Shown here: in pieces, positions 7,368 to 24,116 of the stretch
How the letters are laid out: each line of letters starts with the position of its first letter
How positions within the stretch are numbered: the first letter of the stretch is position 1
Assembly: GCF_028689785.1 (NCBI RefSeq)
Contig: NZ_JAQVCN010000031.1
Span: 1-52,997, forward strand
Reading direction: 5' to 3'
Length of the DNA stretch: 52,997 nt
Source: Zoogloea sp.
Lineage (GTDB): Bacteria > Pseudomonadota > Gammaproteobacteria > Burkholderiales > Rhodocyclaceae
Notes under the pieces: model-generated
What the model was told of the DNA's origin: nothing
The model's database searches: none
The model's input: only the letters and a program-made list of their open reading frames with translations
Translations under genes and position numbers: made by a program

Positions 7368-7703
7368 CTAGGGGCGGGCGGGCGCCGGGCCGGGCTCGAT
7401 GAGGATCAACTGGCCGGTCTTCGGGTCGCGGAAGACCTCGCCGACCCGATCCATGCCAGCGCCGGCCTGACCTTGGCCGTCGGCAGGGCGTTCGATGGCG
7501 CGGCCTTTGTCCACCGGCTTGGGCGGGGGCAGGGCACCCTGGGTGCTGGCCGCCAGGGCCGCGAGCAGGCCGCAGGCGAAGACCAGCATCACGTCCACCA
7601 GGTTTACCAAGCTGGCGCGGGGGTCTTCGTCCCGGTCGTCGAAGCGGGCATCCAGACGCGAGTAGAGGCGCAGGCGTTTGCGGGGTGGCCGGGCAGCGCT
7701 CAT
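7368..7703 (-). CDS. DUF2149 protein, ExbD-like partner of chelatase module 1
   Basis: Small membrane protein of 111 residues, probably the ExbD/TolR-like stator partner of the adjacent proton channel. One membrane segment near residues 32-52 starts NLVDVMLVFACGLLAAL. The aspartate (D37) lies where ExbD, TolR and MotB carry their proton-pathway Asp. The C-terminal half is charged and should face the periplasm. ExbD-like function is inferred from this segment and from invariable pairing with an ExbB-like gene. It overlaps that gene by 4 nt (ATGA at 7700-7703) and ends about 30 nt before the next promoter, with no clear terminator, so read-through into the cbiM operon is possible. Confidence 0.8.
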   Translation of the reverse strand: MSAARPPRKRLRLYSRLDARFDDRDEDPRASLVNLVDVMLVFACGLLAALAASTQGALPPPKPVDKGRAIERPADGQGQAGAGMDRVGEVFRDPKTGQLILIEPGPAPARP

Positions 7704-8158
7704 GCGTCATCCTCCAGGTTTTCCAGCAGCTCTTCGTACCAGCGCCGCCGCAGCTTGCCGACCACCAGCCCGCCGATGCCGGCCACCAGCCCGAGCACGG
7801 TGGCGTCGAAGGCGGTGGTGACCGCGCTGGCCAGCTCCGAGGGGTTGCCCTGACCCAGGGCGGCGAGGCCCGGTCCGAGGGGAATGATGGTGGCCATCAG
7901 GCCTAGCATGGGCGGGATGCGGGCCAGCAGGTCGGCCCGCTCCAGACGGTGGCGGGCGACGCGCTGGATCAGCAGCAGGTCGCCACTGGCTGCGAGGCGG
8001 CGCAGGCCCCACAGGCGTTCGCCGGTGGCCAGGCCCGCTTCGGCGAGGGCGATAGCGCAGGCGGCGATGAGGGCCAGCAGCACGGGGGCCAGCAGCCAGG
8101 TGACGGCCTGGTGGAGCCAGGCGAGGGTGAGCAAGTCGTTCATGGTGGGATCAGGCAT
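7700..8158 (-). CDS. MotA/TolQ/ExbB-like proton channel, chelatase module 1
   Basis: Inner-membrane proton-channel subunit of 152 residues. It has an N-terminal membrane helix (about 14-38) and two later helices. The MLGLMATIIPLGPGLAAL stretch corresponds to the conserved TolQ/ExbB pore helix, and AFDATVLGLVAGIGGLVVGK to the final helix. It is shorter than E. coli ExbB (about 240) because the cytoplasmic loop is reduced. The ATG at 8158 lies within the end of the cobN-like gene; an internal ATG at 8143 is also possible and neither has a clear ribosome site. It is expected to work with the downstream DUF2149 protein and the upstream chelatase. Confidence 0.85.
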   Translation of the reverse strand: MPDPTMNDLLTLAWLHQAVTWLLAPVLLALIAACAIALAEAGLATGERLWGLRRLAASGDLLLIQRVARHRLERADLLARIPPMLGLMATIIPLGPGLAALGQGNPSELASAVTTAFDATVLGLVAGIGGLVVGKLRRRWYEELLENLEDDA

Positions 8159-11100
8159 GGGTGGAGGTTGAAGGGCCGCGGCGGCTCCAGGCGAGGCCGA
8201 GAAGGAAGAGCAGCGGGGTAAGGGTGAGTAGAGCTACCGGTGGCGCGTGTGGGGTGGCGAGCGGCGCCGGGCGGGTATGGAGTTCGTAATGACGTTCGGC
8301 GGCTTCCGGGGGGGCAGCGGCGGCCGGGTTGGCGGTGGGTTGTGGTGCCGCAGCAGCCTGGTCGCGACGGGGTGTCGCGGCCTCGTGGCGGGGGCGCTGT
8401 TGTCGGGGCGTGGCGGCCATGGCAGTGGTGGGCGCGATGGGGCCGGGAGACAGCCCTTCACCCTTGGCCCGGGCCAGGGCTACCCCGAGGGCGTCGGCGT
8501 CGGCGGCGTCGATGCGGGGTTTGAGCCAGTTCCACATCGGATGGTTGGGGGCGGTGTGGCCGCTGCCGGGCAGGCCGTTCTTCGCCACCAGCCGGGCCAG
8601 TTCGCCGCCCATCTGCTTCAGGGTGGCGTCATCGGCCTGCCAGAAGCCCTTCTCGGCGGCGACCATGAAGATGGCCAGCATCTGCGCCTTGACATGGGCG
8701 TTGTGGCCCTGGGCAAGAAAGCGCGGCAGCCCCAGCTTGTGCCGGTCGTCGAACCAGGTCTCTTTGACCTCGTCCCAGGCCCATTGCTGGATCAGGTCTG
8801 GTCGGGTGACCTGCCAGCCCCACAGGTTTTCCAGGAACTCCTGGCCCATGGTGCGGGCACCGGCATAGCCGTGCTTCATCAGGGGCTTGAGCCATTCCGG
8901 GTTGAGGTAGCGGCCGCGCAGTTCTGACAGCAGGGCGGTGGTCAGGGGCTCCACGGCGGGGTGAGCCGGGTCGGCGTGTTGCAGGATCAGGCCTTCGGGG
9001 CGACGCCCGGTGAGGGTCTCGATGGCCACCGACATGCCGCCCAGATAGTCGAAAGCATCGTTGTTGTCGAGCAGGCCATACAGGTTGCTGGCGCGGCCGT
9101 GGTAGCTGCGGGCCACGCCGGAGAGGGCGGTCTCGAAGGCCTGGTGGGCGGCATCGCCGCTGGCGTCGAGCCCATAGGCGTGGCCCAGGCGGTTGAGGTA
9201 GACGCGGCCCAGCTCTTCCCGCTCGCGCCAGGCACCGGAGCGTTCTGCCAGGCGATTGACGCCGGCGCTGTAGCTCCCCGGGGCGTCGCCGAAGATGCGC
9301 AGGGCGGCGCTACGGCCAGCTTCGGCGATATTGAGGCCAGTCTGGCTGAGCTGCTTGGTGCGGGCCAGCCAGCGGGCCGCGGCGATGTTGTCGGTGAGTG
9401 CCTGCTGCCCCCGGACGACGCTGCTGCCCAGGGGAGCGAGGGCGGCGTCGAGAGCGGTGCCCAGTTCTGGGTGCTGCTCGGCGATGATGCCGGCGGAGGC
9501 GGCCAGGGCCAGGCGGCCGGCCCGGTCGATCAGCCTGAGCAGATTGGGGTAGAGGTCGCGGAACAGGCCCGAGGTGGTGACGATCACATCGCGCCGGGGT
9601 GTGTCGTCGAGCAGGCGCACGTCGCTGACAATGCCGCGGGCGTTCCACACCGGTTCGGCACCGAGCAGCGACAGGCAGAAGGCGACCATGGCACCTTCGT
9701 CGCGCACCGCGTCGGAGGCCCACAGGATGACGGCGTCGCTGTCGGCATCGCCCTGGACCTTGCGGGGGCGGGCGGTGGCCTGTTCTGCCAGGCGGGCGCC
9801 GAGGGCGTAGCCCAGCCGGGTGGGCAGCAGGTCGCCATCAACGGCGTGGAAGTTGCGCCCGGTGGGCAGGGCTTCCGGCGAGCGCAGGGGGTCGTTGCCC
9901 TTGCCCGGGGCCACGAAGCGGCCGTCCAGGCCGGCCAGCAGGCCTTCCATTTCCAGGCGTGGCGAGGCGGCGAGCTTGTCGGCGATGGTGTCGTCGTAGC
10001 CGCCGGCCACCTGGCTCATGGAGTCGGCCATCAGCTTCAATGATTCGGTGCTCCAGTCCTGCCCGAAGATGTGCAGGCCGTGGGGCATGAACTTCTCCTG
10101 CAACTTGGTGAGGTAGTGGCCGATTTCGTGGGCCAGCAGGTCGTCGTCGGCGTCTTCGAAGCCGATGCCGCGCACTTCCAGTACGTCGGCCATCGAGGCT
10201 TCCAGCTCGGCCCGCAGGTTGAGGGCGGCGACCTGTTCGCGCATGCGGCGGGCGGCCTGGTGTTTCAGGCTCTCGCTGCCGGCGGCCTCGAAGCTCTCCA
10301 CCACCTGGCGCAATTCCAGCAGCTTGTCGTAGAGCGGGGTGGCGGAGAGGGGCGGGGTGAGATGGTCGACGATCACGGCAAGGCCTCGGCGTTTGGCCTG
10401 GATGCCCTCGCCGACGCCGTCGACGATGTAGGGGTAGATGCCCGGCAGGTCAGCGGCGATGAGGCTGGGGTAGTCGTCGGCGGTCAGACCGACCGCCTTG
10501 CCGGGCAGGAACTCGTAGGTGGAGTGACGCCCCAGGTGCACCACCGCATCGGCGCGGAAGACGTCGCGGATCCAGTGATAGAAGCCCAGAAACTGGTGGG
10601 GGGGAGGTACGCTGGTGTTGGCGTGGAGGAGTTCTTCATCGACCTCCCAGCCCCGGGGCGGCTGGGGACCGACAAAGATCTTGCCGAAGGTGAGCCCGGG
10701 TACCAGTAGCTTGCCATCGCTGACCATTACTTTGCCTGGTGCTGGTCCCCATCCCTTGAGGCCTTCGATGCCGTAGCCGACGATCTTCCAGGTGAGGCCG
10801 GAATGGCGGCTGCAGGTGCCCTGGGGAATATCCGCGAGGCAAGCCAGGTAACCGGCTTCGAGAGCCTTCAGCCCGGCAATGGCTTCGGTCCGCCGGGGGT
10901 GGTCGGCGCCTTCGGCGAGGTGGTGGAGTTCCTTCATCGCCGACTCGACACGCTTGCGGCCGAGGCTGCGTTCGCCGGTACGCTCGGCTTCCAGCACTTC
11001 GGCGTGAAGGCGGCCGAGGGGGCCGGAGACCATTTCGCCCTGGACGCGCTCCGGCAGCCCGGCAAACCAGCGCCGGTAGTCGGCGGCACTGAGGCCTTCC

Positions 11101-12533
11101 ACCTCGCCGGCCAGCTCGCGCAGGGCGGTCTTGTCTTCGGGCAGGTTGACCCCGTGGGCCATGATGCGGTCGAGCAGCGCTTCGGGGGTGGCCGGCAGCT
11201 CGCCGGTGTCGTAGCCCTCGGCCTTCAGCCGCAGCAGGATGCCGAACAGGGAGGCGGGCACGTCCAGGTTGTCGGCGCCGATGTTCTGCCGGCCGGGCGG
11301 GTGGTTGTAGTAGATGATGGCCAGGCGCTTGTCGGCCCGGGCCTTGGCCTGGAGCTGCTGCCAGCGGGCCGCGCGAGACACCAGGCGGCTGATCTCGACG
11401 GGGATGGGCTCGGTGCGGCGCAGCTCGACGCCAGTGACGGGGTCGATGCGGCCGGCACCCACGGCGGACACCACGATGGGTTGGCCGATGCCCTGGAGCT
11501 CCGGCAGGGCCACCCGGTATTGCACGGAATCCACCGGCAGCCCTTCCGGCGACAGGCGCCACTGGGTAGCGCTGCGTTCGGTAAGGCGGATGGCCTTGAT
11601 GACCGGGATGTCGAGTCGCTGGAGCGCCTCGGTGACGGCCTCCCGGTTTTCGGCGGCGCCGATGACGAAGTCCTGGAGCACCACCAGGGCGGCCGGACGG
11701 GCCGGGGCGAGCAGGGCGGGCAGGCCCTCGATGGCCTCCCGGGAGCTGCCTCCCCAGCGGGTCAGGACTTCGGCGCAGGGCAGATTCTGGCGGCGGGATT
11801 CGGCGCAGATGGCGGCGGCCGTGCCGGATTCGATGTTGGACAGGTCCAGCACGGCCAGGGCCGGGCCGGCGGGCAGCAGATGGGCGTTCCAGGCGTCGGC
11901 ATCGACGCGTTCGACAGTTCCGACGCGCAGGCGCAGGCTGGCCTCGGCCCGGGGTGGGGGCAGGGGGCTGCCGGCCAGCAGGTGCTTGAACAGCCTGCCC
12001 AGGTTGTCGCTGCCACCGGCCTGCCAGGTGCGCCGGGCGTCGAACCACTGCTGGGCCGCCGGTGCCGCTGCTGCGGCGGCGAGGGCCTCTCGGGGAGGGC
12101 TTTCTGCGGTCAGCTGGCGCAGGGTCTCAGCGGGAAAGCTGCCCAGCGCACCCGCCTTCGAGCGGCTCAGCAGGTTGAGGCGTTGTTCGCCGTTGATGGC
12201 CAGTACGGTGCTGGCACGGCTGGCGGGTATGGCCTCGATGAGGCGCCGCGCCGGGTCGCCAAAGGCCGAGACGGTCAGTACGGAATCGGCGTCGAGCCAT
12301 TGGCGCAATTGCCGGTCGCTGGCCGCCTGGATCTGGGCCGGGGTGCGCAGCAGGATGCGGTCGCGGGGGTTGCGGGCGAGGTGCTGGTGGGCGGCCTCGA
12401 CAGCCTGGGGCGCGGCGCGGTCGGTGACGACGCCGAACAGGGTGGCGGCGTGCGCACTGCCGACGGCGGCGAGGGCTGCCAGCAACCCGCTGCCGTGGGT
12501 GAACATCCGGTGAATCGATCTGCGTACTGCCAT
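8151..12533 (-). CDS. cobN: Secreted, membrane-anchored CobN-like metal chelatase (copy 1)
   Basis: Large chelatase of the CobN/ChlH family (1460 residues). Unlike cytoplasmic CobN it has a signal sequence ending AAVGSAHA near residue 29, a long Pro/Ala/Gln/Arg-rich linker, and a C-terminal membrane helix (TLTPLLFLLGLAW) followed by a short basic tail. The bulk should therefore be periplasmic. The family motif HxGTHG-x-x-E-(W/F)-LPGK near residue 670 appears as HLGRHSTYEFLPGK, with Thr replaced by Arg. The frame extends 58 codons upstream into the riboswitch, but GGAGG just before the ATG at 12533 fixes the start. There is no cobS or cobT. B12 control and the neighbours suggest metal removal from, or insertion into, a corrinoid or porphyrin; the substrate is unknown. 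Confidence 0.88.
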   Translation of the reverse strand: MAVRRSIHRMFTHGSGLLAALAAVGSAHAATLFGVVTDRAAPQAVEAAHQHLARNPRDRILLRTPAQIQAASDRQLRQWLDADSVLTVSAFGDPARRLIEAIPASRASTVLAINGEQRLNLLSRSKAGALGSFPAETLRQLTAESPPREALAAAAAAPAAQQWFDARRTWQAGGSDNLGRLFKHLLAGSPLPPPRAEASLRLRVGTVERVDADAWNAHLLPAGPALAVLDLSNIESGTAAAICAESRRQNLPCAEVLTRWGGSSREAIEGLPALLAPARPAALVVLQDFVIGAAENREAVTEALQRLDIPVIKAIRLTERSATQWRLSPEGLPVDSVQYRVALPELQGIGQPIVVSAVGAGRIDPVTGVELRRTEPIPVEISRLVSRAARWQQLQAKARADKRLAIIYYNHPPGRQNIGADNLDVPASLFGILLRLKAEGYDTGELPATPEALLDRIMAHGVNLPEDKTALRELAGEVEGLSAADYRRWFAGLPERVQGEMVSGPLGRLHAEVLEAERTGERSLGRKRVESAMKELHHLAEGADHPRRTEAIAGLKALEAGYLACLADIPQGTCSRHSGLTWKIVGYGIEGLKGWGPAPGKVMVSDGKLLVPGLTFGKIFVGPQPPRGWEVDEELLHANTSVPPPHQFLGFYHWIRDVFRADAVVHLGRHSTYEFLPGKAVGLTADDYPSLIAADLPGIYPYIVDGVGEGIQAKRRGLAVIVDHLTPPLSATPLYDKLLELRQVVESFEAAGSESLKHQAARRMREQVAALNLRAELEASMADVLEVRGIGFEDADDDLLAHEIGHYLTKLQEKFMPHGLHIFGQDWSTESLKLMADSMSQVAGGYDDTIADKLAASPRLEMEGLLAGLDGRFVAPGKGNDPLRSPEALPTGRNFHAVDGDLLPTRLGYALGARLAEQATARPRKVQGDADSDAVILWASDAVRDEGAMVAFCLSLLGAEPVWNARGIVSDVRLLDDTPRRDVIVTTSGLFRDLYPNLLRLIDRAGRLALAASAGIIAEQHPELGTALDAALAPLGSSVVRGQQALTDNIAAARWLARTKQLSQTGLNIAEAGRSAALRIFGDAPGSYSAGVNRLAERSGAWREREELGRVYLNRLGHAYGLDASGDAAHQAFETALSGVARSYHGRASNLYGLLDNNDAFDYLGGMSVAIETLTGRRPEGLILQHADPAHPAVEPLTTALLSELRGRYLNPEWLKPLMKHGYAGARTMGQEFLENLWGWQVTRPDLIQQWAWDEVKETWFDDRHKLGLPRFLAQGHNAHVKAQMLAIFMVAAEKGFWQADDATLKQMGGELARLVAKNGLPGSGHTAPNHPMWNWLKPRIDAADADALGVALARAKGEGLSPGPIAPTTAMAATPRQQRPRHEAATPRRDQAAAAPQPTANPAAAAPPEAAERHYELHTRPAPLATPHAPPVALLTLTPLLFLLGLAWSRRGPSTSTHA

Positions 12534-12679
12534 TGCGCCTCCGCGTGCCATCGGGCTGGCCGTGGAGCGAGGGGACGATACGAAGTCGCTGGGCGGGCGC
12601 TGAGAATGAAGGAGTGCGCGGGAAGGCCGACGTTTCGCTCGCCACTCCCACACCCCGGGGCACAGCTGAACCAGTGTTG

Positions 12680-12878
12680 TCGGGCCGGTCTTCTGGCTCG
12701 CCTTCATTCAACCCGCTCCGACCTTCCCGGGCCAAAAGCCCAGTGGTGTGTGTGGAGGTGGCGTCAGGCTTACAGCAGCGGGGACTGCGCCGGAATGCCC
12801 GGCGAGCCAATACTCGCGGAGGTCACCGGACTTCCCGTTTCACCTTGCCCGCAGACGCGGGGTCGGCACCCGAAATGC
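12680..12878 (-). ncRNA. Cobalamin riboswitch 2 (leader of cobN module)
   Basis: A second AdoCbl-type aptamer, very similar to the one at 7105-7300. On the minus strand it has GGTGCC (12870-12865), GGTGAAACGGGAAG with CCGGTGA, CCACTGGG, GGGAAGG and the terminal AGCCAGAAGACCGGCC (12698-12683). It ends about 150 nt before the cobN start. It accounts for most of the 512-nt gap between cobN and the plus-strand gene at 13046. The rest of that gap holds the promoter at 12884-12913 and a palindrome at 12964-12979. Confidence 0.93.
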
Positions 12879-12883
12879 CGCGG

Positions 12884-12913
12884 AGTCTAACCGCCGCCCC
12901 CGTCGCACTGCAA
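12884..12913 (-). promoter_or_regulatory. Sigma-70-like promoter of riboswitch 2
   Basis: On the minus strand TTGCAG (12913-12908), an 18-nt spacer and TAGACT (12889-12884) form a promoter matching that of riboswitch 1 in both hexamers and spacing. The block GGTTAGACTCCGCG is identical in the two copies. Confidence 0.6.
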
Positions 12914-13045
12914 GTCCAGGCGCCGCTGCGGTGAGACGGGTTCCCAAGCGCAGATAGTTCATTACAATAACGTCATTGTTCCGCTGGTCTCCCGCTCGCG
13001 TCTCGCGTTCTTGATGCACGGGTTTTCGTCCGCCCTTTTCTCGCC

Positions 13046-14053
13046 TTGATTACCGCCGTGCCTTTCAAGCCTTCTGCCACCCCGCCCGACCTCACTGACC
13101 CCCAGCATCCGGCTCTGCCCGGGGCTCCGGCGGCGGACAGTGACGCGTCGAGCCTGGATGCTGATGCGGCGGCATTGCTGGCGGATATCGCGTCTTTCGA
13201 CATTGAGGCGGCGCGCCGGCGGGTACAGCAGATTGATGCCCGTTACACCGGCATTCGCAGAACACAGGCGGATTTTTCCGGTGCGGCCCGGGATCTGGGT
13301 TTTCCTGAAGTCAGTGGGCTGCGTACGCCGGCTGTTTCTGATGTGGGTGCATCCGAGGCGCAGCTCCCGGCACCCGAGCCCGCGGCCCGGTCTGTACTGA
13401 GTGGTGGGGTGCTTGAGCAGTTGCGCGATGAAGTCGCCCAGCGTCAGCGTGGTGCCAGCATCGCCTCCCAGGAGGCGGAACGGCTGCGCGAGGGTCTGGA
13501 TCGTTCGCTGCGCGCTGTGTTTGACTACTGCCGGGATCTCAGCACGCAACTGAACTTCCTGAAGCCCCAGGTGGGGCGCAACTACTACCTTCTCGATTCC
13601 GACGATCCCATTCGCAACCTGTCCTGGCAGGAGGGCTATGCCGATTTTCGGACCTGTTCGACCGGTGAGGGCGGCAACATCGAGCGCGTGAGCATGGGCT
13701 ACACCCTGCACGGGCCGGGGCAGCGCAGCCTGGAGCGCGCCGGAGGGGCAGTCGAACGGCTGCGCCAGATGCTCTTCGACCTGGGGCTTAAATTCGAATG
13801 CCAGGAGCGTCGCAACCGCATGCGCGAACTGGAGTCGGCGCTGTTTACCGTGGCCGACGAGATCAGCGTGCAGGTGGTGTGGCGGGCAGATTTCGAGAAG
13901 GGTGAAGTGGTGGTGGAGTCCCGCAATCTTGAGCGCCTTGGGTTCGTCACCTTCACCCTCAAGCCCGAGGCCATCTGCCCGAGCCTGCTCGACGAGTTCG
14001 GGCGCCTGGTGCTGGGCCGGGAAAACCGTTTCCGCTCCTGTCTGGCCCGCTGA
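13046..14053 (+). CDS. Conserved hypothetical coiled-coil protein
   Basis: I do not recognise a family. The 335-residue product has an acidic, Ala/Pro-rich N-terminal third, a helical stretch at about 125-165 with charged heptad-like spacing (LEQLRDEVAQRQRG, then EAERLREGLDRSLRAVF), and a compact C-terminal half beginning CRDLSTQLNFLKP. No signal sequence or membrane helix is evident. The start is uncertain: TTG at 13046 or GTG at 13058 are both possible and no strong ribosome site is seen. It stands alone, divergent from the cobN module and convergent with the oxidoreductase gene. A partial palindrome (ACAAT...ATTGT, 12964-12979) lies 67 nt upstream. Confidence 0.7.
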   Translation: MITAVPFKPSATPPDLTDPQHPALPGAPAADSDASSLDADAAALLADIASFDIEAARRRVQQIDARYTGIRRTQADFSGAARDLGFPEVSGLRTPAVSDVGASEAQLPAPEPAARSVLSGGVLEQLRDEVAQRQRGASIASQEAERLREGLDRSLRAVFDYCRDLSTQLNFLKPQVGRNYYLLDSDDPIRNLSWQEGYADFRTCSTGEGGNIERVSMGYTLHGPGQRSLERAGGAVERLRQMLFDLGLKFECQERRNRMRELESALFTVADEISVQVVWRADFEKGEVVVESRNLERLGFVTFTLKPEAICPSLLDEFGRLVLGRENRFRSCLAR

Positions 14054-14095
14054 GCACTGCGGAGCCTTGCGGCCCCGGGGAGTGGTCCGCTGTGG

Positions 14096-15709
14096 TTAGC
14101 CCTGGCCCAGCAGGCTGGCTGTAAGGGCTTCGGCAACCCGGATACCATCCACGCCGGCTGACAAGATGCCGCCCGCGTAACCGGCCCCTTCACCTGCCGG
14201 ATAGAGCCCCTTCACATTGAGACTCTGACAGTTTTCCCCGCGGGTGATGCGCAGGGGCGACGACGTGCGGGTCTCCACACCTGTCAGCACCGCGTCGTAC
14301 ATGTTGAAGCCGCGGATCTGCCGGTCGAAAGCCGGCAGGGCTTCACGCAGGGCGCTGATGGCGTAGTCGGGGAGGGCAGTGGACAGATCGCCCAGCTTCA
14401 CCCCCGGCTTGTAGGAGGGCTCCACATTCCCCAGGGCCGTCGAGGCCTTGCCTTTCAGGAAGTCCCCGACCAGCTGGCCCGGTGCCTCATAGGTGCTGCC
14501 GCCGAGCACGAAGGCACGGCTTTCCAGCTCGCGCTGGAAGGCGATCCCGGCCAGGGGGCCGCCAGGGTAGTCGTCCGGGGTGATGCTCACCACAATGCCG
14601 GCGTTGGCGTTGCGCTCGTTGCGGGAGTACTGGCTCATGCCGTTGGTGACTACCCGGTTCGGTTCCGAGGTGGCGGCCACCACGGTGCCGCCGGGGCACA
14701 TGCAGAAGCTGTACACCGCGCGGCCATTGGATGCGTGATGCACCAGCTTGTAGTCGGCCGCGCCCAGCTCCGGGTGGCCGGCGTGGGGGCCGAGGCGTGC
14801 CTTGTCGATGAGGCTCTGGGGGTGTTCGATGCGGAAGCCCACCGAGAAGGGCTTGGCTTCCATGAACACGCCGCGCTCGTGCAGCATCTCGAAGGTGTCC
14901 CGGGCGCTGTGGCCAAGGGCCAGTACCACGTGCTTGCTGCGGATCTCCTCTCCACTGGCGGTGCTGACACCAAGCACCTGGCCGTCCTCGATCAGGACGT
15001 CGGTGACCCGCTGCTGAAAGCGGATTTCGCCGCCCAGTTGCTCGATCTCGGCGCGCATGGCTTCGACCATGCCCACCAGCCGGAAGGTGCCGATATGAGG
15101 CTTGGCCACATAGAGGATTTCAGGTGGCGCGCCGGCCTTGACGAACTCGGTGAGCACCTTGCGGCCGTAGTGCTTCGGGTCCTTGATCTGGCTGTAGAGC
15201 TTGCCGTCGGAGAAGGTGCCGGCGCCGCCTTCGCCAAACTGCACGTTGGATTCGGGGTTGAGCGTGTGCTTGCGCCACAGCCCCCAGGTGTCCTGGGTGC
15301 GTTCGCGCACGGCCTTGCCGCGCTCCAGCACGATGGGCCGGAAGCCGGCCTGGGCGAGGATGAGGGCGGCAAAGATGCCGCAGGGGCCGAAGCCGATGAC
15401 CACCGGACGTTCGCTGAAGCCTGGCGGGGCCTTGCCGACAAAGTGATACTCCATGTCGGGCGTCGGCTTCACATGCATGTCGCCGGCAAAGCGCTTGAGC
15501 ACCGCGGATTCGTTTTTTACCTCGGCATCGATGATGTAGATGAAGCTGAGGCGGACGTTCTTGCGGGCATCGTAGCTGCGCTTGTGAACCTTGAAGCCAG
15601 TCAGCGCATCGGCAGGAATGCCCAAACGCTGAATGATGGCGGCGGGGAGGTCATCGGCCGGATGGTCGAGGGGCAGGCGGAGTTCGGAAATTCGCAGCAT
15701 GGCAGTCAT
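14096..15709 (-). CDS. NAD(P)/FAD-dependent oxidoreductase
   Basis: A 537-residue flavoprotein of the uncharacterised FAD-dependent dehydrogenase family. The dinucleotide fold starts near residue 102 with VIGFGPCGIFAALILAQAG, a GxGxxG variant, followed by VLERGKAVRERTQDTWGLW. Further family blocks are FGEGGAGTFSDGKLYS, FCMCPGGTVVAATSEPN and, at the C terminus, GLYPAGEGAGYAGGI, which closes the FAD site. The N-terminal 90 residues form a small domain with KVHKRSYDARK. The substrate is not known; some relatives are annotated near tRNA or quinone metabolism. ATG at 15709 is used; ATG at 15700 is also possible. It is a single gene with no operon partner visible. Confidence 0.88.
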   Translation of the reverse strand: MTAMLRISELRLPLDHPADDLPAAIIQRLGIPADALTGFKVHKRSYDARKNVRLSFIYIIDAEVKNESAVLKRFAGDMHVKPTPDMEYHFVGKAPPGFSERPVVIGFGPCGIFAALILAQAGFRPIVLERGKAVRERTQDTWGLWRKHTLNPESNVQFGEGGAGTFSDGKLYSQIKDPKHYGRKVLTEFVKAGAPPEILYVAKPHIGTFRLVGMVEAMRAEIEQLGGEIRFQQRVTDVLIEDGQVLGVSTASGEEIRSKHVVLALGHSARDTFEMLHERGVFMEAKPFSVGFRIEHPQSLIDKARLGPHAGHPELGAADYKLVHHASNGRAVYSFCMCPGGTVVAATSEPNRVVTNGMSQYSRNERNANAGIVVSITPDDYPGGPLAGIAFQRELESRAFVLGGSTYEAPGQLVGDFLKGKASTALGNVEPSYKPGVKLGDLSTALPDYAISALREALPAFDRQIRGFNMYDAVLTGVETRTSSPLRITRGENCQSLNVKGLYPAGEGAGYAGGILSAGVDGIRVAEALTASLLGQG

Positions 15710-17222: not shown

Positions 17223-17232
17223 GGCCTGCCGG

Positions 17233-17321: not shown

Positions 17322-18269
17322 TCAGCCGTTCTGTTGAATGCCGGCCACCAGCCAGCCGTTGTTGCCGCTGCGGGGCTTGGTGAGGTGCCAGACTTCGTCG
17401 ATGCCTTCGGGGGCGGCGTTGGTTTCTTCGCGCAGCAGGCCGGTGAAGCGGACGCTGACGATGTAGCGCTCTGCTTCCTCGCTCACATCGATGACCTCGG
17501 CGTTGAGGGACACCACGTCGGTCTTCTGACCGGCGGCGCCGTCATCCATCCAGTTCATCTTGATCTCGGCGAACATCTCGGGCGTGGTGTACTCGCGAAT
17601 ATCGTCCAGATTGCGGGCGTCATTGGCGGCCTGCAGGCGGATGAAGTTGACCTTGGCGTTACGCACGAAGGCGTCGGCGTCAAAGTCGGCCGGGATGTTG
17701 CCGACAGCTGCCGTGGTGGCAGCCGCCGCAGTTGTCGCTGCCACGGGGGCTGCAGCACCACCGAAAGCCGGGGTGGCGGTGGACGACGGTGCCTTGTCGT
17801 AAGTACCCTGGTTGGCGGTGTACTGCATGCCACCGGCGCCCGCACCGGCCAGGGCCGGCTGGTTGGCGGCGGCGCGCTTGCGCAGGAAGAAGCCGATCAC
17901 GGCGATCACGGCAAAGGCGATCAGGGCCATCATCATCATGGAGGCGAGCTCTTCACCGAACCCCAAGTGGGAAGCCAGGGCGGCCAGACCGATACCAGCG
18001 GCCAGGCCGGCCAGGGGGCCCATCCAGGAACGCTTGGGCTGGGCCGCGGGGGCCGCGGCTGCGGCCTGGGAACGGGCTGGGGCAGCGGCCGCGCCAGGCT
18101 GTTGGGCCGGGGTGGCTGGGGTGGCGGTGGGGGCCTTGGGTTGGCTCAGCTCCTGGCGTTGCATGCCCGACGATTTGCCACCACCGAAACGCTTGGCGGC
18201 ATCGGCATCGCCGGCAACGAGGGTCAGGCCCAGCGCCAAGGCGGCGCCCATCAGGGCAAAGGATTTCAT
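17322..18269 (-). CDS. Tim44-like domain protein, membrane-associated
   Basis: A 315-residue protein with an N-terminal signal-like segment (MKSFALMGAALALGLTLVAG), a low-complexity Ala/Pro/Gln-rich region (about 40-80), hydrophobic segments at about 84-100 and 108-127, a second low-complexity linker, and a C-terminal Tim44-like domain from about 195. That domain includes FVRNAKVNFIRLQAA and ends with a strand-rich part (VSVRFTGLLRE, DEVWHLTKP). Bacterial Tim44-domain proteins are membrane-linked and of unclear function. The gene is monocistronic: a terminator follows and 126 nt separate it from the chaN-like gene. Confidence 0.85.
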   Translation of the reverse strand: MKSFALMGAALALGLTLVAGDADAAKRFGGGKSSGMQRQELSQPKAPTATPATPAQQPGAAAAPARSQAAAAAPAAQPKRSWMGPLAGLAAGIGLAALASHLGFGEELASMMMMALIAFAVIAVIGFFLRKRAAANQPALAGAGAGGMQYTANQGTYDKAPSSTATPAFGGAAAPVAATTAAAATTAAVGNIPADFDADAFVRNAKVNFIRLQAANDARNLDDIREYTTPEMFAEIKMNWMDDGAAGQKTDVVSLNAEVIDVSEEAERYIVSVRFTGLLREETNAAPEGIDEVWHLTKPRSGNNGWLVAGIQQNG

Positions 18270-18395
18270 TCGTGTCTCCTGTAGTTGGGGGATTCAGCCT
18301 GGCAAGGATAATCGGGAGTTCGATTAAATAAAATCAGAATTGTTGGTAGTCTGATTTCGATAAAAATTGAATGTCGAGCAGTTTTCCATGACTGT

Positions 18396-19241
18396 TCAGG
18401 ATTGCGGAGCTGGGAAGCGCTTGCAGGGGTCGTCCCGCTGGACGGCCGGGGTGATCCAGAGGTGGGTGTAGGCCCGATGCGGTTCTGCGCTGTGCTCACT
18501 TTCCAGAAAGGCGATGTTCAGGATGCGTGTACCCGGACGCAGTTGGGCCAGGGTAACGGGCACGCCATAGTCGGCCCGCACGTGGCCGTTGCCGGCCACC
18601 AGGATGGCGGGGCGGTCTTTCAGGGCCGCGACGCCGGTGGCCATGGCGGCATCCCGGGCGCGCTGGGCGAGGCGCATGCCCGGCACGCGGGTGGCGGGGA
18701 GCTGGCCGCAGTGATCATCCACCAGATCTTTGTCCAGCGCCATTTGTGCTGTGGCCGGCAAAGGGGCTGCCGTCAGGGTGGTAGCGAGGGCCGGGGGCAG
18801 GGCGCTCTCCCCTTCGCGTACCAGGCGGCGGGCCAGGTCGCGGGAGATGTTTGCACCTGCCACGCCGATTGATGCCTGGGCCAGGCCGGCGAAAAGGGGT
18901 TCGTGGAGGGGCCACTGCCAGGATCGGGCGTCGAAGCCGGCGCTGCTCAGTTGATCCGCCACCGATGGGCCGTTGGGCGACGCCCAACTCACCCGCTGCC
19001 CGTCTTCCAGGTGCTCGGCGGCGATTGAGCTGGGCGCCAGCTCGGCGATCAGGGCCGCCCTGCGTTGGTGGTGATAGGGGTTGTCGTGGATCTCCCCCAG
19101 GAGGACGAAGTCACTCTGGCGGGCCTGGGCCAACAGGTCGGCCCGGCTGATCTCCCGGCCGGTGGTGGTGTCGATGATGCGGTCGGCGGCCTGGGCTGCA
19201 CCGGTCAGGCAGATCAGCAGCAGGGTGAGTCGGAGGTTCAT
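18396..19241 (-). CDS. ChaN family haem/iron-associated protein
   Basis: A 281-residue exported protein of the ChaN family. Known members (Campylobacter ChaN, Pseudomonas PhuW) bind haem and are induced by iron limitation. The N terminus MNLRLTLLLICLTGAAQA is a signal sequence; the cysteine at 10 lacks a good lipobox, so lipidation is doubtful. The family hallmark FVLLGEIHDNPYHHQ follows at about residue 46, and NGHVRADYGVP lies near the C terminus. The frame is open to 19355, but 19241 is preferred because the signal sequence starts there. It is 67 nt downstream of the second DUF2149 gene, so it is probably the last gene of the Fur-controlled haem operon. Confidence 0.82.
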   Translation of the reverse strand: MNLRLTLLLICLTGAAQAADRIIDTTTGREISRADLLAQARQSDFVLLGEIHDNPYHHQRRAALIAELAPSSIAAEHLEDGQRVSWASPNGPSVADQLSSAGFDARSWQWPLHEPLFAGLAQASIGVAGANISRDLARRLVREGESALPPALATTLTAAPLPATAQMALDKDLVDDHCGQLPATRVPGMRLAQRARDAAMATGVAALKDRPAILVAGNGHVRADYGVPVTLAQLRPGTRILNIAFLESEHSAEPHRAYTHLWITPAVQRDDPCKRFPAPQS

Positions 19242-19308
19242 GGTCGGGTGTGCCGTTGGGGCCGGAGCACCGGCAGGTCCTGTATGGACGAGCCGGACGG
19301 GTGGGAGT

Positions 19309-19641
19309 TCAGTGCGGGGTGTCGGTGCCTTCGGGGACATACACGATGGAGCCATCCTTCATGCGGTAGGCGACGCCGGCCTTTTCGCCATCACCGCTGC
19401 CGATCGCACCGCTGGCCTTGTAGTGCTCGACTTTTTCGCCTTTCTTGATGGTGATCTCCATGTTCGGCTTGCCGGGGTCGGTGATGACGGTGACGTCCTT
19501 CTTGCTGAAGGGGTTCATCAGCGGGTTCTTGGCGATGGTGATGAGCAGGGCGGCGATGACGACCAGGAAGATGTCGATGAGATTGACCACCGACAGGATC
19601 GGGTCTTCGGTTTCGGGTTCGTGCAGCAGCTTGAGCGCCAT
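19309..19641 (-). CDS. DUF2149 protein, ExbD-like partner of chelatase module 2
   Basis: A 110-residue membrane protein paralogous to the one at 7368-7703. One membrane segment (about 15-38) reads DPILSVVNLIDIFLVVIAAL, with D23 at the position of the ExbD/TolR aspartate. The C-terminal half is strand-rich and polar (VTVITDPGKPNMEITIKKG), consistent with a periplasmic domain. It starts 2 nt after the ExbB-like gene. The conserved pairing and Asp suggest an ExbD-type stator; no experimental function is known to me. Confidence 0.8.
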   Translation of the reverse strand: MALKLLHEPETEDPILSVVNLIDIFLVVIAALLITIAKNPLMNPFSKKDVTVITDPGKPNMEITIKKGEKVEHYKASGAIGSGDGEKAGVAYRMKDGSIVYVPEGTDTPH

Positions 19642-19643
19642 GT

Positions 19644-20123
19644 TCAGCCCTCCTTGCGCAGACGGGCGATGTATACGATCTCCTCGGCCAGCCAGCGCCG
19701 CCGCACATTGGTAACCCAGAAGGTGATCGATGCGGCGATGAGAGCCAGGATGACCGCCGAGAACGCCACCGTGAGGTTGTGGGATACCTGGGCCAGGTCA
19801 CCGTCCGACAGGGACTTGAGCGCCGGGCCCATGGGAATCATGGTGGCAACCAGACCCAGCATTGGCGTGATGCGGCTGGCGACCCGGGGTGCTTCGAGGA
19901 TGGTGTGGGCCTGCAGGTCGAGTTCGTCGTCGGTAAGCGAGCGGTTGGCCCGGAAGGCTCGGATCAGCGGCCGACCGCCATCGCTGCGGCGGCGCCAGGC
20001 GATCATGGCGAATTCTCCCAGGGACCAGAAGGCAAACAGGAAGAGCACGGCGATGAGGAGGAGGGTGGGCAGCAGGAAGAGCTGCGCCACGTCGTACATG
20101 GTGTTTTCGAGGGACTGGTTCAT
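19644..20123 (-). CDS. MotA/TolQ/ExbB-like proton channel, chelatase module 2
   Basis: A 159-residue inner-membrane protein. Its N-terminal membrane helix is FLLPTLLLIAVLFLFAFWSL. A short charged cytoplasmic loop follows, then ITPMLGLVATMIPMGPALKSL, the TolQ/ExbB-type pore segment, and AFSAVILALIAASITFWVTN as the last helix. The PMGP motif matches PLGP in the module 1 paralogue and distinguishes this subfamily from ordinary ExbB. It sits 27 nt after the second cobN-like gene and just before DUF2149, so all three are probably co-translated. It could also energise the TonB receptor of the operon, but no tonB gene is present. Confidence 0.85.
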   Translation of the reverse strand: MNQSLENTMYDVAQLFLLPTLLLIAVLFLFAFWSLGEFAMIAWRRRSDGGRPLIRAFRANRSLTDDELDLQAHTILEAPRVASRITPMLGLVATMIPMGPALKSLSDGDLAQVSHNLTVAFSAVILALIAASITFWVTNVRRRWLAEEIVYIARLRKEG

Positions 20124-20150
20124 AGTGAAGTTCAGGCGGGTTGGCAGGAG

Positions 20151-23100
20151 TTAGCGGAAGGCGGAGCGGGCCCGCAGCATGCCGCCCAGGCTTGCCATGG
20201 CCACGAGGAATAGCCCCCAGGCGGCATGTGCGGGTACGGGCGGGGCAGGGGGCTCGACCCTGTCGAGGCGCATGCCCTGGATGGGCGGCGGTGGTGCCGG
20301 GGCAGGTTCGGGTGCTTGTTCGCCCGAGGGCGCTTCGGCGGCGGGGGGCGGCGTGAGCGGGGAAGGCTGGGGGGTGTTCTGGGCCAGACCGAAGCCGACG
20401 AAGGTAGGCAGGGCTGCGTTGTCGGTTTTTACTTGGTGACGCCTGGCCAGCTCACGGTAGCGGGCCTTGAGCTCGTCCACAGTGGCCCTGTCGGCCTTCC
20501 AGTAGCCCTGGCGGGCGGCTTCAAGCATGCGTTCGATGCTTTGGGCGAGGGCATGGGGGTTCTGGCGCTCGAACCAGTCCTTGAGGCCGAGTCTGTGCTT
20601 GTCGCGCACGTAGACGTCGACGAACTCCTGCCATTGGTCATCGCGCACGATCTCCCGGGCTACGGACTGCCAGCCCGAGAAGTTGTTGATGCCATCGAGC
20701 ACCTGCAGGGTGCCGGCGTAGCCTTCCTTCATCAGGCCCTGGATGTAGCCGGGGTGGAAGTTGCGGGTGGCCAGCTCCTTGGCCAGGAATCCTGCTGCGC
20801 CTTCGACCTTGCCGCCGCCCTGGCCGCGCAGGTTGGAGATGTAGAGTTCCGGCGCTTTGCCATCCAGGTGGCGCACGGCGAGGGCGATGCCGCCCAGGTA
20901 CTGGAAGGGATCGTCGGTGGTGAGCATGCCGTAGAGGTTGGAGCTGCGGGACAACACCGCGCCTTCGGTGCCCTTGAGGTGGGCGGCGTAGAGGTTCTCG
21001 CCCCCGGCACCGGACTGGCCCCATTGGCTTTCGTCAGGGCCGTAGCCGAACTGCATGCGTGACAGATATAGGCGGGCGAGCTTGCGATCACCTTCGGCCT
21101 TGCCCTTCCAGGTGTCGGTGGCCAGGGCCGCGTCGTCCAGGCCGGTGCCATAGCGGCCGGACTCGGAGGAGAAGATGCGGGTCTGGGCGGCGTTGGTGGC
21201 CTGAGCGTCGGTCCAGCCCCGGGCGCGCAGGGATGCAGCGATGCGGCGGGTGTTGGCGGCCACGGGGTTGTCGGCTTCGTCGGCCTCGGCGGCCAGTTTT
21301 GCGGCCTTGGCGAGCAGGCGCATCACGTTGGGAAAGTGGTCGCGGTACAGGCCGGTGGCCGACAGCACCACATCCACCCGGGGTCGGCCGAGGGCTTCCC
21401 GGGGTACGAGGCGGACATCGTCTACCCGGCCGCCGGCATCCCACACGGGTTCGACACCCAGTGCCCACAGGGCCTGGGCTTCGAGCAGGCCGAAGTGGCG
21501 CATGGTTTCCACCGACCACAGGGTGAAGGTGAGCTTCTGCGGCGTCTTGCCCGCTTTTGCGCGGTGGGTGGCGAGGAGCTGATCGAAGGCCTCGCGGCCG
21601 GCAGCCCAGGCGGCCCGGGTGGGCACGCGGGAGGGGTCGAAGCCGTACAGGTTGCGGCCGGTGGGCAGGGCGTCGGGGTTCTTGATCGGGTCGCCGCCGT
21701 AGCTGGTGGGAATGTGACGCCCCTCCAGGCCGGCCAACAGGGCTGTAATTTCGGGGCTGGCGTCGAGGGCGGCGTACCACTTGCCGGCTTGCTCTGCGGC
21801 GGCGCGGGCCCTGGGGGGCAACGCGGAGATTTCGGCCGTGCCTTGCAGGATGGCCTTCAGGCGACGGTAGGGGGAGGACTCCTTCAGCCGGGTGTAGTCG
21901 CCGACGAGGAGTTCGACGGCATCTTCGCCCGGGCTGGCGACGCCTTCCCAGAAGTCCTTGCCAACCATCATCAGTACGGTGGCGATGCGACCGTCTTCGC
22001 CGGCACCCTGGCCGAAGGTGTGCAGCCCCAGGGGTTGCGCGGTGCGGGCCAGTTCGTGGAGGTGATCGTGGACCTCGGTGACAAAGCCGGCGAAATCCTT
22101 GCCGATGCGCGCCTCGTTCCAGCCCAGGTCCTTGTCGATGTTTTCCTTGCGCACCGCGGCGAGAAACTGGCTGCGGATCTTGTCCTTAACCGCGCCTTCG
22201 TCCTGGGTTAGCCAGGCGTGAAGTTGGTCGTGGATGCCGGTGAGGGCGGAATGCAGGCCGGCGGGGGCAAAGGGTGGAGTGAGGTGGCTGATGATGGTGG
22301 CACGGCCCCGGCGCTTGGCCTGGGTGGCTTCGCCAATATTGTCCACGATGTAGGGGTAAAGCACGGGCACATCGCCGACGGCGAGCATGGGAAAGTCGGA
22401 TACGGCGAGGCCGCGCTCCTTGCCGGGCAGCCACTCCTGGCTGCCGTGGGTGCCGTAGTGGATGAAGGCGTCGCTCCGGGCCTGTTCCCGGGCCCACAGG
22501 TAGGCGGCCATGTAGAAGTGGGAAGGGGCGGCGCTGGTGGAGTGGTAAAGGGCCTTCTCCTTTTCCTCCCAGCGTTCGCCCCGAGGCGGCTGGGGCAGCA
22601 GGGCAAGATGGCCAAGGCGCAGGCGCGGGATGACGAAACCGGGTTGGCCCCGGTGGATCACCACCATGGACGAGCGCTCGGGCTCGCCCCAGCGTTCGTG
22701 CAACTGCTTGCGCACGCTGTCGGGCTGGCCAGCAAGCCAGCGCCGGTAGGTGGTCAGGGGCAGATGCTCGGCCAGGTCGTCCCGGAGCAGGGATTCGAGG
22801 ACGCTGTTGTCACCGGCGGGCTGGTAGTAGGGGGCGAGCAGGCGCTGGAGCGACAGGGTGAGCTCGGTTTCGCCGGGGGTCTCGGTGGTGTAACCGTGGG
22901 CCTTGAGGGCGGTGAGGGTGGCCACCAGGCTGCGCGGCAGGTTCATGAACGAGGCGGAGAGGTTCTTCTCCCCCGGGGGGTAGTTCCAGAAGAACAGGGT
23001 GACGCGCTTGTCCTTGTTGGCCCGGGTCTGCAGCCGGGCCAGGCGCAGGGCCTTGCCCACCACGGCGTCGGCTTGGGCGGCGATGGGGGCGATCTGGTCG

Positions 23101-24116
23101 TCGGACTTGCGGGTGGCGGCGGCAATCTGGATGTCGGTGACGCCGGCGTATTCAGCCTGGGCCAGGTAGAAGGGCACGTCCATCAGGGCGACGCCCTGGG
23201 GGTCGGCGGCCCACGCGGCCTCGTCGCCCTTGCGGTAGGGCATGGCCTGGACGACGGGGATGCCGAGCTCGGCAAACTCTGTTCTACGGCCCTCCGGGTT
23301 GAGCATGATCTGGGTGTTGATCAGGGCGTTGGCGAGGAGCCGGCCGTTTGCCCGCAGCATGCGCCGGACGGCGTCCGGATCCATGACCGGGCTGTAGAAG
23401 GGCAGGGCCGTGGCGCCGGCCTTTTCGATGCGCCGGATCAGGTCGTCGATGAATGCGGTCTGCTCGGCGGCGATGTACTGCTGATGGAGGGCGATGGCGA
23501 TGACCGGGGCGTCGGGGGCGGAGCCTCTCCAGCGCAGGTAGGCGGTGGGGTCGGCGAAGACGAGGCCGGGGTGGTCCGGGTGATAGACGCCGCTCTTGGG
23601 AAAGACGATCGGGTCGGGAATACCCGCCGTGGATTTGCCTGCGAGCAGGGCGGCGAGGCTGGCGAGGAAGGCATCGCTGTTGAGCCGGCCACCGTTTACA
23701 TAATAGGTGTGGAGCCGCCGCGCCACGCTGTCGGGCAGGCCTTGCCAGCGGGGCTGACCTTCGTGCAGCCACAGGTGCGGTGCATGCAGGCCGGGGAGTG
23801 CGCTGGCCAGGCGACTCTCTACGAAGGCCTGGAGGTGATCCCGCGGGGTATCGAAGAGCACCAGGTCGTAGCCCTTGAAGAGCGCAGGGCCGGTGTCGGA
23901 GGGGAGCTTCTCGGCGAAGCGGGACTCCAGCTCCAGGCCATGCCGCCGGGCGCCTTCGGCCATCTTGAGGAACTTGCCCGGCTGGACCGGGGAGGTGCTG
24001 ATGACCAGGATGCGCCCGGCTGCCGCCGGCCCGCTCCCGGTGAGCAGGAGCAGGCACAGCACGGGGAGGGCCAGCGCGGCAAGGAAGCGCCGGGGCAAAC
24101 GGGCTAACGAGTGCAT
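20151..24116 (-). CDS. cobN: Secreted, membrane-anchored CobN-like chelatase (copy 2, HmuS-like)
   Basis: CobN/ChlH-family chelatase of 1321 residues. A signal sequence (FLAALALPVLCLLLLTGSGPAAAG, residues 11-34) and a C-terminal helix (AAWGLFLVAMASLGGML) after a Pro/Ala-rich linker place it in the periplasm, tethered to the inner membrane. The family motif is intact near residue 558: HYGTHGSQEWLPGK. The start at 24116 lies 2 nt after the receptor stop. Gene order (haem-type receptor, CobN, ExbB-like, DUF2149) matches hmu operons of Bacteroidota, whose HmuS is reported to remove iron from haem. I infer haem de-metallation here. It has no AAA+ partner, and cobaltochelatase activity in B12 synthesis is unlikely because the corrin pathway in this window uses CbiX. 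Confidence 0.88.
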   Translation of the reverse strand: MHSLARLPRRFLAALALPVLCLLLLTGSGPAAAGRILVISTSPVQPGKFLKMAEGARRHGLELESRFAEKLPSDTGPALFKGYDLVLFDTPRDHLQAFVESRLASALPGLHAPHLWLHEGQPRWQGLPDSVARRLHTYYVNGGRLNSDAFLASLAALLAGKSTAGIPDPIVFPKSGVYHPDHPGLVFADPTAYLRWRGSAPDAPVIAIALHQQYIAAEQTAFIDDLIRRIEKAGATALPFYSPVMDPDAVRRMLRANGRLLANALINTQIMLNPEGRRTEFAELGIPVVQAMPYRKGDEAAWAADPQGVALMDVPFYLAQAEYAGVTDIQIAAATRKSDDQIAPIAAQADAVVGKALRLARLQTRANKDKRVTLFFWNYPPGEKNLSASFMNLPRSLVATLTALKAHGYTTETPGETELTLSLQRLLAPYYQPAGDNSVLESLLRDDLAEHLPLTTYRRWLAGQPDSVRKQLHERWGEPERSSMVVIHRGQPGFVIPRLRLGHLALLPQPPRGERWEEKEKALYHSTSAAPSHFYMAAYLWAREQARSDAFIHYGTHGSQEWLPGKERGLAVSDFPMLAVGDVPVLYPYIVDNIGEATQAKRRGRATIISHLTPPFAPAGLHSALTGIHDQLHAWLTQDEGAVKDKIRSQFLAAVRKENIDKDLGWNEARIGKDFAGFVTEVHDHLHELARTAQPLGLHTFGQGAGEDGRIATVLMMVGKDFWEGVASPGEDAVELLVGDYTRLKESSPYRRLKAILQGTAEISALPPRARAAAEQAGKWYAALDASPEITALLAGLEGRHIPTSYGGDPIKNPDALPTGRNLYGFDPSRVPTRAAWAAGREAFDQLLATHRAKAGKTPQKLTFTLWSVETMRHFGLLEAQALWALGVEPVWDAGGRVDDVRLVPREALGRPRVDVVLSATGLYRDHFPNVMRLLAKAAKLAAEADEADNPVAANTRRIAASLRARGWTDAQATNAAQTRIFSSESGRYGTGLDDAALATDTWKGKAEGDRKLARLYLSRMQFGYGPDESQWGQSGAGGENLYAAHLKGTEGAVLSRSSNLYGMLTTDDPFQYLGGIALAVRHLDGKAPELYISNLRGQGGGKVEGAAGFLAKELATRNFHPGYIQGLMKEGYAGTLQVLDGINNFSGWQSVAREIVRDDQWQEFVDVYVRDKHRLGLKDWFERQNPHALAQSIERMLEAARQGYWKADRATVDELKARYRELARRHQVKTDNAALPTFVGFGLAQNTPQPSPLTPPPAAEAPSGEQAPEPAPAPPPPIQGMRLDRVEPPAPPVPAHAAWGLFLVAMASLGGMLRARSAFR

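Follow-up and report, generated by a model that had tools for sequence, protein, structure and literature searches.

A possible ExbB-DUF2149 motor for periplasmic CobN-like proteins in Zoogloea sp. and related gene sets

We analysed a 52,997-nucleotide stretch of the genome of Zoogloea sp. (assembly GCF_028689785.1, contig NZ_JAQVCN010000031.1, positions 1 to 52,997; hereafter the window), which carries on its minus strand two genes for large CobN-like proteins, CobN1 and CobN2, each followed on the same strand by genes for a short ExbB/TolQ-type channel protein and a DUF2149 protein. This arrangement had been recognised in a preliminary description made from the sequence alone, and Pfam matches confirmed it. 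The best explanation of the evidence as a whole is that the ExbB-DUF2149 pair is a motor that cycles the tail-anchored, periplasmic body of CobN, a reading to which we give a probability of about one half. Loci fetched for comparison are referred to by L numbers.

Two CobN gene sets and their products

The first gene set (cluster A), in its order along the minus strand, consists of:

12666..12888, minus strand: cobalamin riboswitch 5' of CobN1 (Rfam RF00174, 105.2 bits)
8151..12533, minus strand: CobN1 (type 1, B12-linked), 1460 amino acids (PF02514, E = 2.1e-243)
7700..8158, minus strand: ExbB1, ExbB/TolQ-type channel and CobN1 partner, 152 amino acids (PF01618, MotA_ExbB, E = 7.4e-8)
7368..7703, minus strand: DUF2149 protein after CobN1 and ExbB1, 111 amino acids (PF09919, E = 3.7e-9, best stretch 24 residues)
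7091..7310, minus strand: second cobalamin riboswitch, 5' of cbiM (Rfam RF00174, 103.5 bits)
6256..7074, minus strand: CbiM, substrate component of a cobalt uptake transporter (PF01891, E = 2.1e-29)
641..6252, minus strand: cobalamin synthesis genes for, in this order, a tetrapyrrole methylase, CbiX, CbiD and a tetrapyrrole methylase (PF00590, PF01903, PF01888, PF00590)

The second (cluster B) begins with a receptor gene and likewise follows the order of the list:

26544..26562, minus strand: weak Fur-box-like site 5' of the receptor, matching the consensus at 13 of 19 positions, suggestive only (position derived by hand)
24119..26404, minus strand: TonB-dependent outer-membrane receptor, first gene of the CobN2 cluster (PF00593, E = 1.9e-60; PF07715)
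20151..24116, minus strand: CobN2 (type 2), 1321 amino acids (PF02514, E = 2.5e-298)
19644..20123, minus strand: ExbB/TolQ-type channel, CobN2 partner, 159 amino acids (PF01618, E = 1.1e-6)
19309..19641, minus strand: DUF2149 protein, CobN2 partner, 110 amino acids (PF09919, E = 3.4e-29)
18396..19355, minus strand: ChaN-type haem-binding protein, next gene of the cluster (PF04187, E = 1.2e-34)

The preliminary description had the trio right but missed both riboswitches, the receptor and the ChaN-type protein. Its statement that CobST is absent agrees with our scans, in which the window's genome, 98.84% complete, was matched by neither the CobS (TIGR01650) nor the CobT (TIGR01651) profile. That genome has four PF02514 matches, every one within CobN1 or CobN2, and CobN2 shares 83% identity with a Zoogloea sp. 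LCSB751 protein (L068). Within the window, neither a TonB nor an ExbD profile matched; the five ExbD matches of the genome lie outside it. Pfam scans of the main open reading frames from 641 to 26404 found neither HmuY nor HmuT, and neither cluster is a complete hmuYRSTUV operon. A FixG-type 4Fe-4S protein encoded at 31798-33246 is unconnected with the chelatase clusters.

Each CobN was said to combine a signal sequence, a periplasmic body and a C-terminal helix. Hydrophobic segments were indeed found near the N-terminus (residues 17-36 of CobN1 and 7-34 of CobN2) and at the C-terminus, where that of CobN1 spans residues 1429-1451 and that of CobN2 is weaker, uncalled at a 19-residue mean of 1.6 and reaching 1.78 over 17 residues. 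These segments distinguish both proteins from the soluble cytoplasmic CobN of CobNST. Among the CobNs of the motor-linked clades, counted without the truncated L060 and L105 and shorter pieces, the C-terminal 17-residue mean was at least 1.4 in 84 of 86 and at least 1.6 in 82 of 86, the low exceptions being L160 (1.00, no helix) and L054 (1.06, weak); none of five complete cytoplasmic CobN/BchH controls had such a helix (17-residue mean 0.06-0.73; last 60 residues 0.06-0.38). At L160 (7312-11547) the CobN without a recognisable C-terminal helix is of type 1, and ExbB and DUF2149 genes still follow it. HmuS is a demonstrated haem de-chelatase (PMC12583661), and inner-membrane anchoring and periplasmic exposure of the Porphyromonas gingivalis protein were supported in E. 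coli (PMC13227078). A periplasmic location of the CobN1 and CobN2 bodies is supported by their predicted topology.

On the motor side, the AlphaFold2 model of ExbB1 consists of three long helices (predicted local distance difference test, pLDDT, 92.9), and its best Foldseek matches in the PDB were ExbB and TolQ, with probabilities up to 1.00 and a best E-value of 7.4e-3 (none at or below 0.001). ExbB1 thus has both the MotA_ExbB domain and the three-helix fold. A threonine in the second channel helix, which we take to be the channel threonine of the E. coli protein, was invariant in all 19 aligned ExbBs, and the acidic residue in the DUF2149 helix was Asp in 16 of 17 sequences and Glu in one. 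By hhalign, the DUF2149 family aligned with ExbD over the Asp-bearing helix (30 columns) with a probability of 73.5%; the ExbD model PF02472 did not match either DUF2149 protein of the window even at E <= 10.

Linkage of CobN to the ExbB-DUF2149 pair

Pairs in other genomes were reached by similarity to ExbB or DUF2149, except L141 and L147, which came through CobN or a paper and are therefore not independent. The genome-collection scan with the ExbB alignment, which kept 80 of 593 confirmed matches, nearly all from Proteobacteria, is biased toward query-like sequences. With the duplicates L032, L139 and L140, short search loci, L142-L146 and L148 omitted, the fetched loci contained 107 ExbB-DUF2149 pairs, the window's two included, and CobN was present in the locus of 94. 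In 84 cases it was encoded on the strand of the pair and no more than 1 kb away; in 9 the distance was 2-3.4 kb, a receptor often intervening, and in one (L135) CobN was on the opposite strand. The remaining 13 pairs had none. Across 299 genomes of the phylum, DUF2149 occurred in 11, and outside the window's genome CobN was in the same locus in 10 out of 10. A plasmid search with ExbB1 gave no matches. Azonexus hydrophilus (L082, 3851-15953) has two CobN-motor sets facing opposite ways, and a riboswitch-like sequence lies close to the second of them.

Seven of the 13 pairs lacking CobN (L018, L043, L050, L056, L080, L089 and L106) have directly upstream a gene for another protein with a C-terminal helix. 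All five of these replacement proteins that were scanned contain Sel1 repeats, four of them above the Pfam cut-off, and no receptor was present in any of the seven fetched loci. A motif derived from 66 type-2 CobN tails (LLLLAFLGGALRQARR) gave the seven proteins scores of 9.5-21.6 bits, against a maximum of 8.7 bits and a median of -2.1 among 39 control C-terminal helices; these controls came from proteins of up to 1000 amino acids without a strong inner helix, with CobN pieces, the seven putative clients, ExbB and DUF2149 excluded. An alternative motif from all CobN tails, run on 80 looser controls that included CobN pieces and clients, gave 9.8 for the best unrelated helix and 11.5 for the weakest client. 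The replacement protein of L080 is cut by the contig end, and the CobN-less pairs of L033 and L062 end at contig edges. We rejected the idea of a second client wherever CobN is missing, which holds for only 7 of the 13 pairs. The window's own genome contributes L018 (contig C125, 7911-9954), a third ExbB-DUF2149 pair, whose upstream neighbour encodes a Sel1-like protein bearing a C-terminal helix; neither CobN nor a receptor was present in the fetched locus. In Cupriavidus L095 and L103 (around 9700-9990), ExbB, DUF2149 and ChaN genes occur together without CobN, and the upstream frames hold short stretches resembling CobN tails.

Two CobN clades, their regulation and their active sites

The two copies had been treated as equivalent, a view that does not survive the phylogeny: they fall in two deep clades that differ in regulation and in active-site residues. 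In a tree of 93 sequences, the 12 B12-type (type 1) CobNs, CobN1 among them, formed one clade (support 1.0), the motor-linked CobNs were split from cytoplasmic CobN/BchH (0.917), and HmuS of Bacteroides thetaiotaomicron joined the type-2 side (0.918). A cobalamin riboswitch was present in 10 of the 12 type-1 loci (fetched locus or extension), for L158 by pattern in its extension L162, and was not found in L134 or in L139 (which stands in the place of L027); riboswitch-like sequences also occurred in the type-2-side loci L019, L026, L082, L083, L086 and L147. NCBIfam scans of ten neighbouring genes chosen from L130, L132 and L140 identified CobO/CobA, CobB, BluB, PduO, CbiD, CbiB, CobQ and a B12 receptor above the cut-off, and one CbiE and one BtuF call below it. 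In L132 the ExbB and DUF2149 genes of the type-1 operon are separated by a gene for a CbiE-like methyltransferase (12117-12785). The distribution of type 1 is patchy: at E <= 1e-20, ExbB1 was matched in 5 of 101 members of the taxonomic family, the window's genome included, and neither of the two listed genomes of the same genus has such a gene.

Type-2 sets showed other regulatory signatures. Palindromes resembling a Zur box at 10 or more of its 11 positions occurred in 6 of the 16 operons of what we call the zur clade, in 1 of 56 other type-2 and in 0 of 11 type-1 operons, a comparison that is not independent since an initial inspection of the motif scores had guided the naming of the clade. 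Fur-like sites (at least 14 of 19) were found at no zur-clade operon, at 10 of the 56 other type-2 operons and at no type-1 operon. The 11 type-1 operons scanned for both kinds of site were those other than that of the window's CobN1. The 13/19 site of the CobN2 operon was equalled in 0.07 of shuffles. In Runella (L141, 1-11821) a CobN set is embedded among the hydrogenase maturation genes hypF, hypC, hypD and hypE, and a protein annotated as urease accessory, whose matches to NicO and DsbD fall below cut-off, is also encoded there; the context suggests nickel. The PA1922-1925 genes of Pseudomonas aeruginosa belong to the Zur regulon (PMC4542158, PMC9431628). One module would then be at work in the context of cobalt, of zinc, of iron and possibly of nickel.

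Active-site positions were compared in HmuS numbering, verified at 12 known positions. His538, which lies in the HFG(T/A)HG motif and is essential in HmuS, was kept in all 12 type-1, all 16 zur-clade and all 50 other type-2 sequences, as well as in 6 of 6 cytoplasmic CobN/ChlH sequences. In type 1 the motif around it reads GRHS, and Arg537, Ser539 and Ala506 form a signature of this clade (12/12). The other HmuS ligands varied. Position 79 (Met in HmuS) was Val, Ala, Leu or Ile in all 12 type-1 sequences and Pro (21/50) or Ile (11/50) in the group of CobN2; position 254 (His in HmuS) was Val in all type-1 sequences, Ile in 31 of 50 in the CobN2 group and His in 15 of 16 in the zur clade, the alignment being loose in the loops that hold both positions. 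In the stretch LSLDHxxEFMGG, position 1209 (His in HmuS) was Asp in 12/12 type-1 and 47/50 other type-2 sequences and His in 14/16 of the zur clade, and position 1212 (Glu in HmuS) was Asp in 12/12 type-1 and Gln in 43/50 other type-2 sequences; 14 of the 16 zur-clade sequences kept both His1209 and Glu1212. CobN2 has Asp and Gln at these two positions, in a stretch reading TTDDPFQYLGG. In HmuS the Met-rich insertion is 156 residues long and contains 21 Met; the corresponding stretch measures 8-19 residues in type 1, with no more than one Met, and 30-44 in the other type-2 proteins. Two of eight deep sequences showed odd letters at conserved positions, where they are probably misaligned. Identity of the window proteins with HmuS was rejected, as the site-1 ligands Met79 and His254, the Met-rich insertion and His1209 are absent; CobN1 and CobN2 are therefore relatives of HmuS and not members under the definition of PMC12583661.

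The gene arrangement is not new, being known from hmuSUV, PA1923-1925 and plasmid pSZ77 of Trichlorobacter. HmuS, HmuU and HmuV, encoded in the hmuYRSTUV operons of Bacteroidota (BtuS in Bacteroides fragilis), likewise combine a periplasmic CobN-like body bearing terminal membrane helices, ExbB-like and DUF2149 partners and a nearby TonB-dependent receptor (PMC12583661, PMC13227078, PMC10434189). The window differs in the HmuS features just listed, in having no HmuY or HmuT among its scanned genes and in the B12 riboswitch that precedes CobN1. P. aeruginosa PA1922-PA1925 encode a receptor, a CobN-like protein, an ExbB-type protein (annotated ExbD) and a DUF2149 protein in the same order (PMC4542158, PMC9431628), but that operon is zinc-regulated, and the zur clade has His1209 and Glu1212 where CobN2 has Asp and Gln; PA1923 itself was not among the tree sequences. 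In Trichlorobacter lovleyi, pSZ77 (NC_010815) carries CobN, DUF2149 and ExbB-type genes between receptors and beside cobalamin genes, without cobST (PMC3403914); unlike the window, it also encodes DUF2162 and a TonB, ExbB and ExbD of its own, and its CobN lies outside the type-1 clade. By annotation, the TonB/ExbB/ExbD genes and an ExbB-DUF2149-CobN set distinct from them stand in one gene run of this plasmid (L147, 18773-30182). CobNST cobaltochelatase and ChlHDI Mg-chelatase share the CobN/ChlH body and the conserved His538, but are cytoplasmic, driven by AAA+ proteins and ATP, and lack the C-terminal helix. The 5:2 motors TonB-ExbBD, TolQRA and MotAB share the ExbB/TolQ fold and the ExbD-like helix; here, in contrast, ExbB is shorter, the axle belongs to a family of its own and the putative client is anchored by a C-terminal, not an N-terminal, helix.

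What the motor may serve

In the mechanism that we favour, the short ExbB-type protein would form the ring and DUF2149 the ExbD-like axle of a two-part ion-driven motor, which would dock on the C-terminal helix of CobN in the place that the single helix of TonB takes in ExbBD. The proton motive force would then cycle the CobN body, opening and closing its head and cavity, and this cycling would load a metal-tetrapyrrole or metal chelate and let the products go. In this way a periplasmic metal-removal enzyme could complete repeated cycles with no need of ATP, and breaking the metal-ligand bonds would probably require no energy input. Most likely CobN1, given its B12 riboswitch and CbiM, serves cobalt or corrinoids, removing or exchanging the metal of scavenged tetrapyrroles, and CobN2, given the receptor, ChaN and the weak Fur-like site, serves iron or haem-like chelates.

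Purified HmuS de-chelates haem with NADH and without ATP, HmuU, HmuV or a proton motive force, for only 1-2 turnovers; in B. thetaiotaomicron extracts a reductant was required and ATP was not, and a dialysed membrane fraction still gave about 80% protoporphyrin (PMC12583661). As that fraction was presumably unable to hold a proton motive force under those conditions, purified protein and membranes alike acted without one, which counts against the motor; the halt of the pure protein after 1-2 turnovers counts in its favour. We infer that ion flow is unneeded for the chemistry and could drive loading, release or reset. Because dechelation proceeded without ATP, HmuU/HmuV or a proton motive force, the result comes close to refuting force-driven chemistry, and the motor may still have a role in turnover. 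We accordingly favour the pairing of motor and chelatase proposed in the preliminary description, and do not favour its view that the proton motive force replaces ATP in the chemical step. A loading, release or reset step driven through the C-terminal helix appears to be the best fit and is also the weakest link.

Several further observations speak against a motor that cycles CobN. One type-1 CobN (L160) has no C-terminal helix and L054 has only a weak one, and the AlphaFold2 model of DUF2149 is poor (pLDDT 58.7, too low for a fold search). The tail motif is specific to type 2, held-out type-1 tails scoring -8.2 to 15.9 and deep clades -7.0 to 17.3; given this poor fit to type 1, tail and ExbB subtype may pair, or the tail of the Sel1 proteins may simply have been inherited from a CobN. 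Signal-like N-termini were seen in 4 of the 7 replacement proteins (L043, L056, L089, L106), whereas L018 and L050 showed none at their called starts. Cupriavidus L079, L095, L096 and L103 keep the pair with neither CobN nor a Sel1 protein adjoining.

The strongest rival, which we nevertheless consider unlikely, is an auxiliary Ton motor: ExbB and DUF2149 would work with a TonB from elsewhere to energise the operon's receptor, and CobN would be unpowered. It is the published interpretation for HmuU/HmuV and PA1924 (PMC10100974, PMC12583661, PMC8456098), and it gains from the presence of a receptor within 6 kb of 75 of the 82 non-type-1 pairs with CobN and from a TonB gene, without ExbD, in 2 of 12 type-1 loci (L130 and L133). 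Against it, TonB and ExbD genes share the locus with the pair in eight cases (L030, L031, L038, L051, L076, L109, L138 and L147), although in several of these the matches lie some kilobases from the pair. Moreover, no receptor was found in the fetched type-1 loci L027, L134, L160 and L161, within 15 kb of the window's type-1 set or in any of the seven replacement-protein loci, and neither DUF2149 protein of the window has an ExbD family match. Archaea of the Methanosarcina/Methanomicrobia kind are not known to have an outer membrane to energise. The genome of the archaeon Methanosarcina acetivorans matched both the DUF2149 and the CobN profile, at genome level only, and Methanomicrobia are listed among the HmuS and HmuV clusters (PMC10100974), which also speaks against a Ton role for HmuV-type proteins; this archaeal evidence is co-occurrence, gene adjacency in archaea not having been seen, and to that extent it tells against our own reading too.

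We regard it as still less probable that the B12-controlled copy is a cobaltochelatase assisted by the proton motive force, inserting cobalt into metal-free or mis-metallated corrinoids in the periplasm. The B12 riboswitch and the neighbouring B12 receptor, CobO, CobB, BluB, CbiB and CobQ would fit the making of corrinoids, and the type-1 Asp at position 1209 is shared with 5 of 6 cytoplasmic CobN/BchH sequences. The window, however, already encodes the chelatase CbiX, the nearest characterised relative removes metal, and free cobalt is scarce in the periplasm.

Improbable, in our judgement, is a transporter in which CobN would act as a large binding component in the periplasm, while the motor and a permease such as HmuT or DUF2162 would together move a tetrapyrrole or metal across the inner membrane. 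HmuTUV has been drawn as presumably carrying haem across that membrane (PMC13227078), the head and neck of CobN resemble binding proteins (PMC12583661), and the Trichlorobacter set comes with DUF2162, predicted to be a family of transporters; yet no gene scanned in the type-2 cluster of the window matched a permease, the only such match beside type 1 was the cobalt component CbiM, and HmuS was shown to be an enzyme (PMC12583661). Finally, the notion that cytoplasmic CobN genes, as CobN normally is, merely lie beside unrelated ExbB genes by chance or through an annotation artefact is scarcely credible and was rejected in view of the terminal helices, the clade split (support 0.917) and the CobN accompanying 94 of 107 pairs.

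The gene trio and the activity of HmuS were already known. No statement that HmuUV drives HmuS was found among the open-access papers that our searches listed, in which it is said that HmuT, HmuU and HmuV may affect HmuS activity (PMC13227078) and a complex spanning the periplasm is proposed (PMC6460266). As far as those searches show, what is new here is the clade under B12-riboswitch control, marked by an active-site signature of its own, together with the evidence for client swapping and the testing of the published model against TonB/ExbD genes that share a locus with the pair. The pattern of regulators (riboswitch, Zur-like and Fur-like sites, hydrogenase genes) argues against taking HmuV-type proteins as diagnostic of haem transport, as in PMC10100974.

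More tentatively than for the motor itself, ExbB-DUF2149 may represent a class of ion-driven rotary motors separate from Ton, Tol and Mot, with clients held by a C-terminal helix, chiefly CobN. Metal stripping outside the cytoplasm would then be powered by the proton motive force, under lineage-specific control by riboswitch, Zur, Fur or nickel genes for cobalt, zinc, iron and nickel, and the Sel1-repeat proteins would be a second client that reveals modularity. The papers that we found assign HmuU and HmuV a TonB or transport role by homology where periplasmic CobN-type enzymes are concerned; co-located TonB/ExbD genes, receptor-less loci and the replacement of CobN make the role of the motor directly testable. 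With the clade under B12-riboswitch control, the range of these enzymes would reach beyond haem iron into the metabolism of cobalt and corrinoids.

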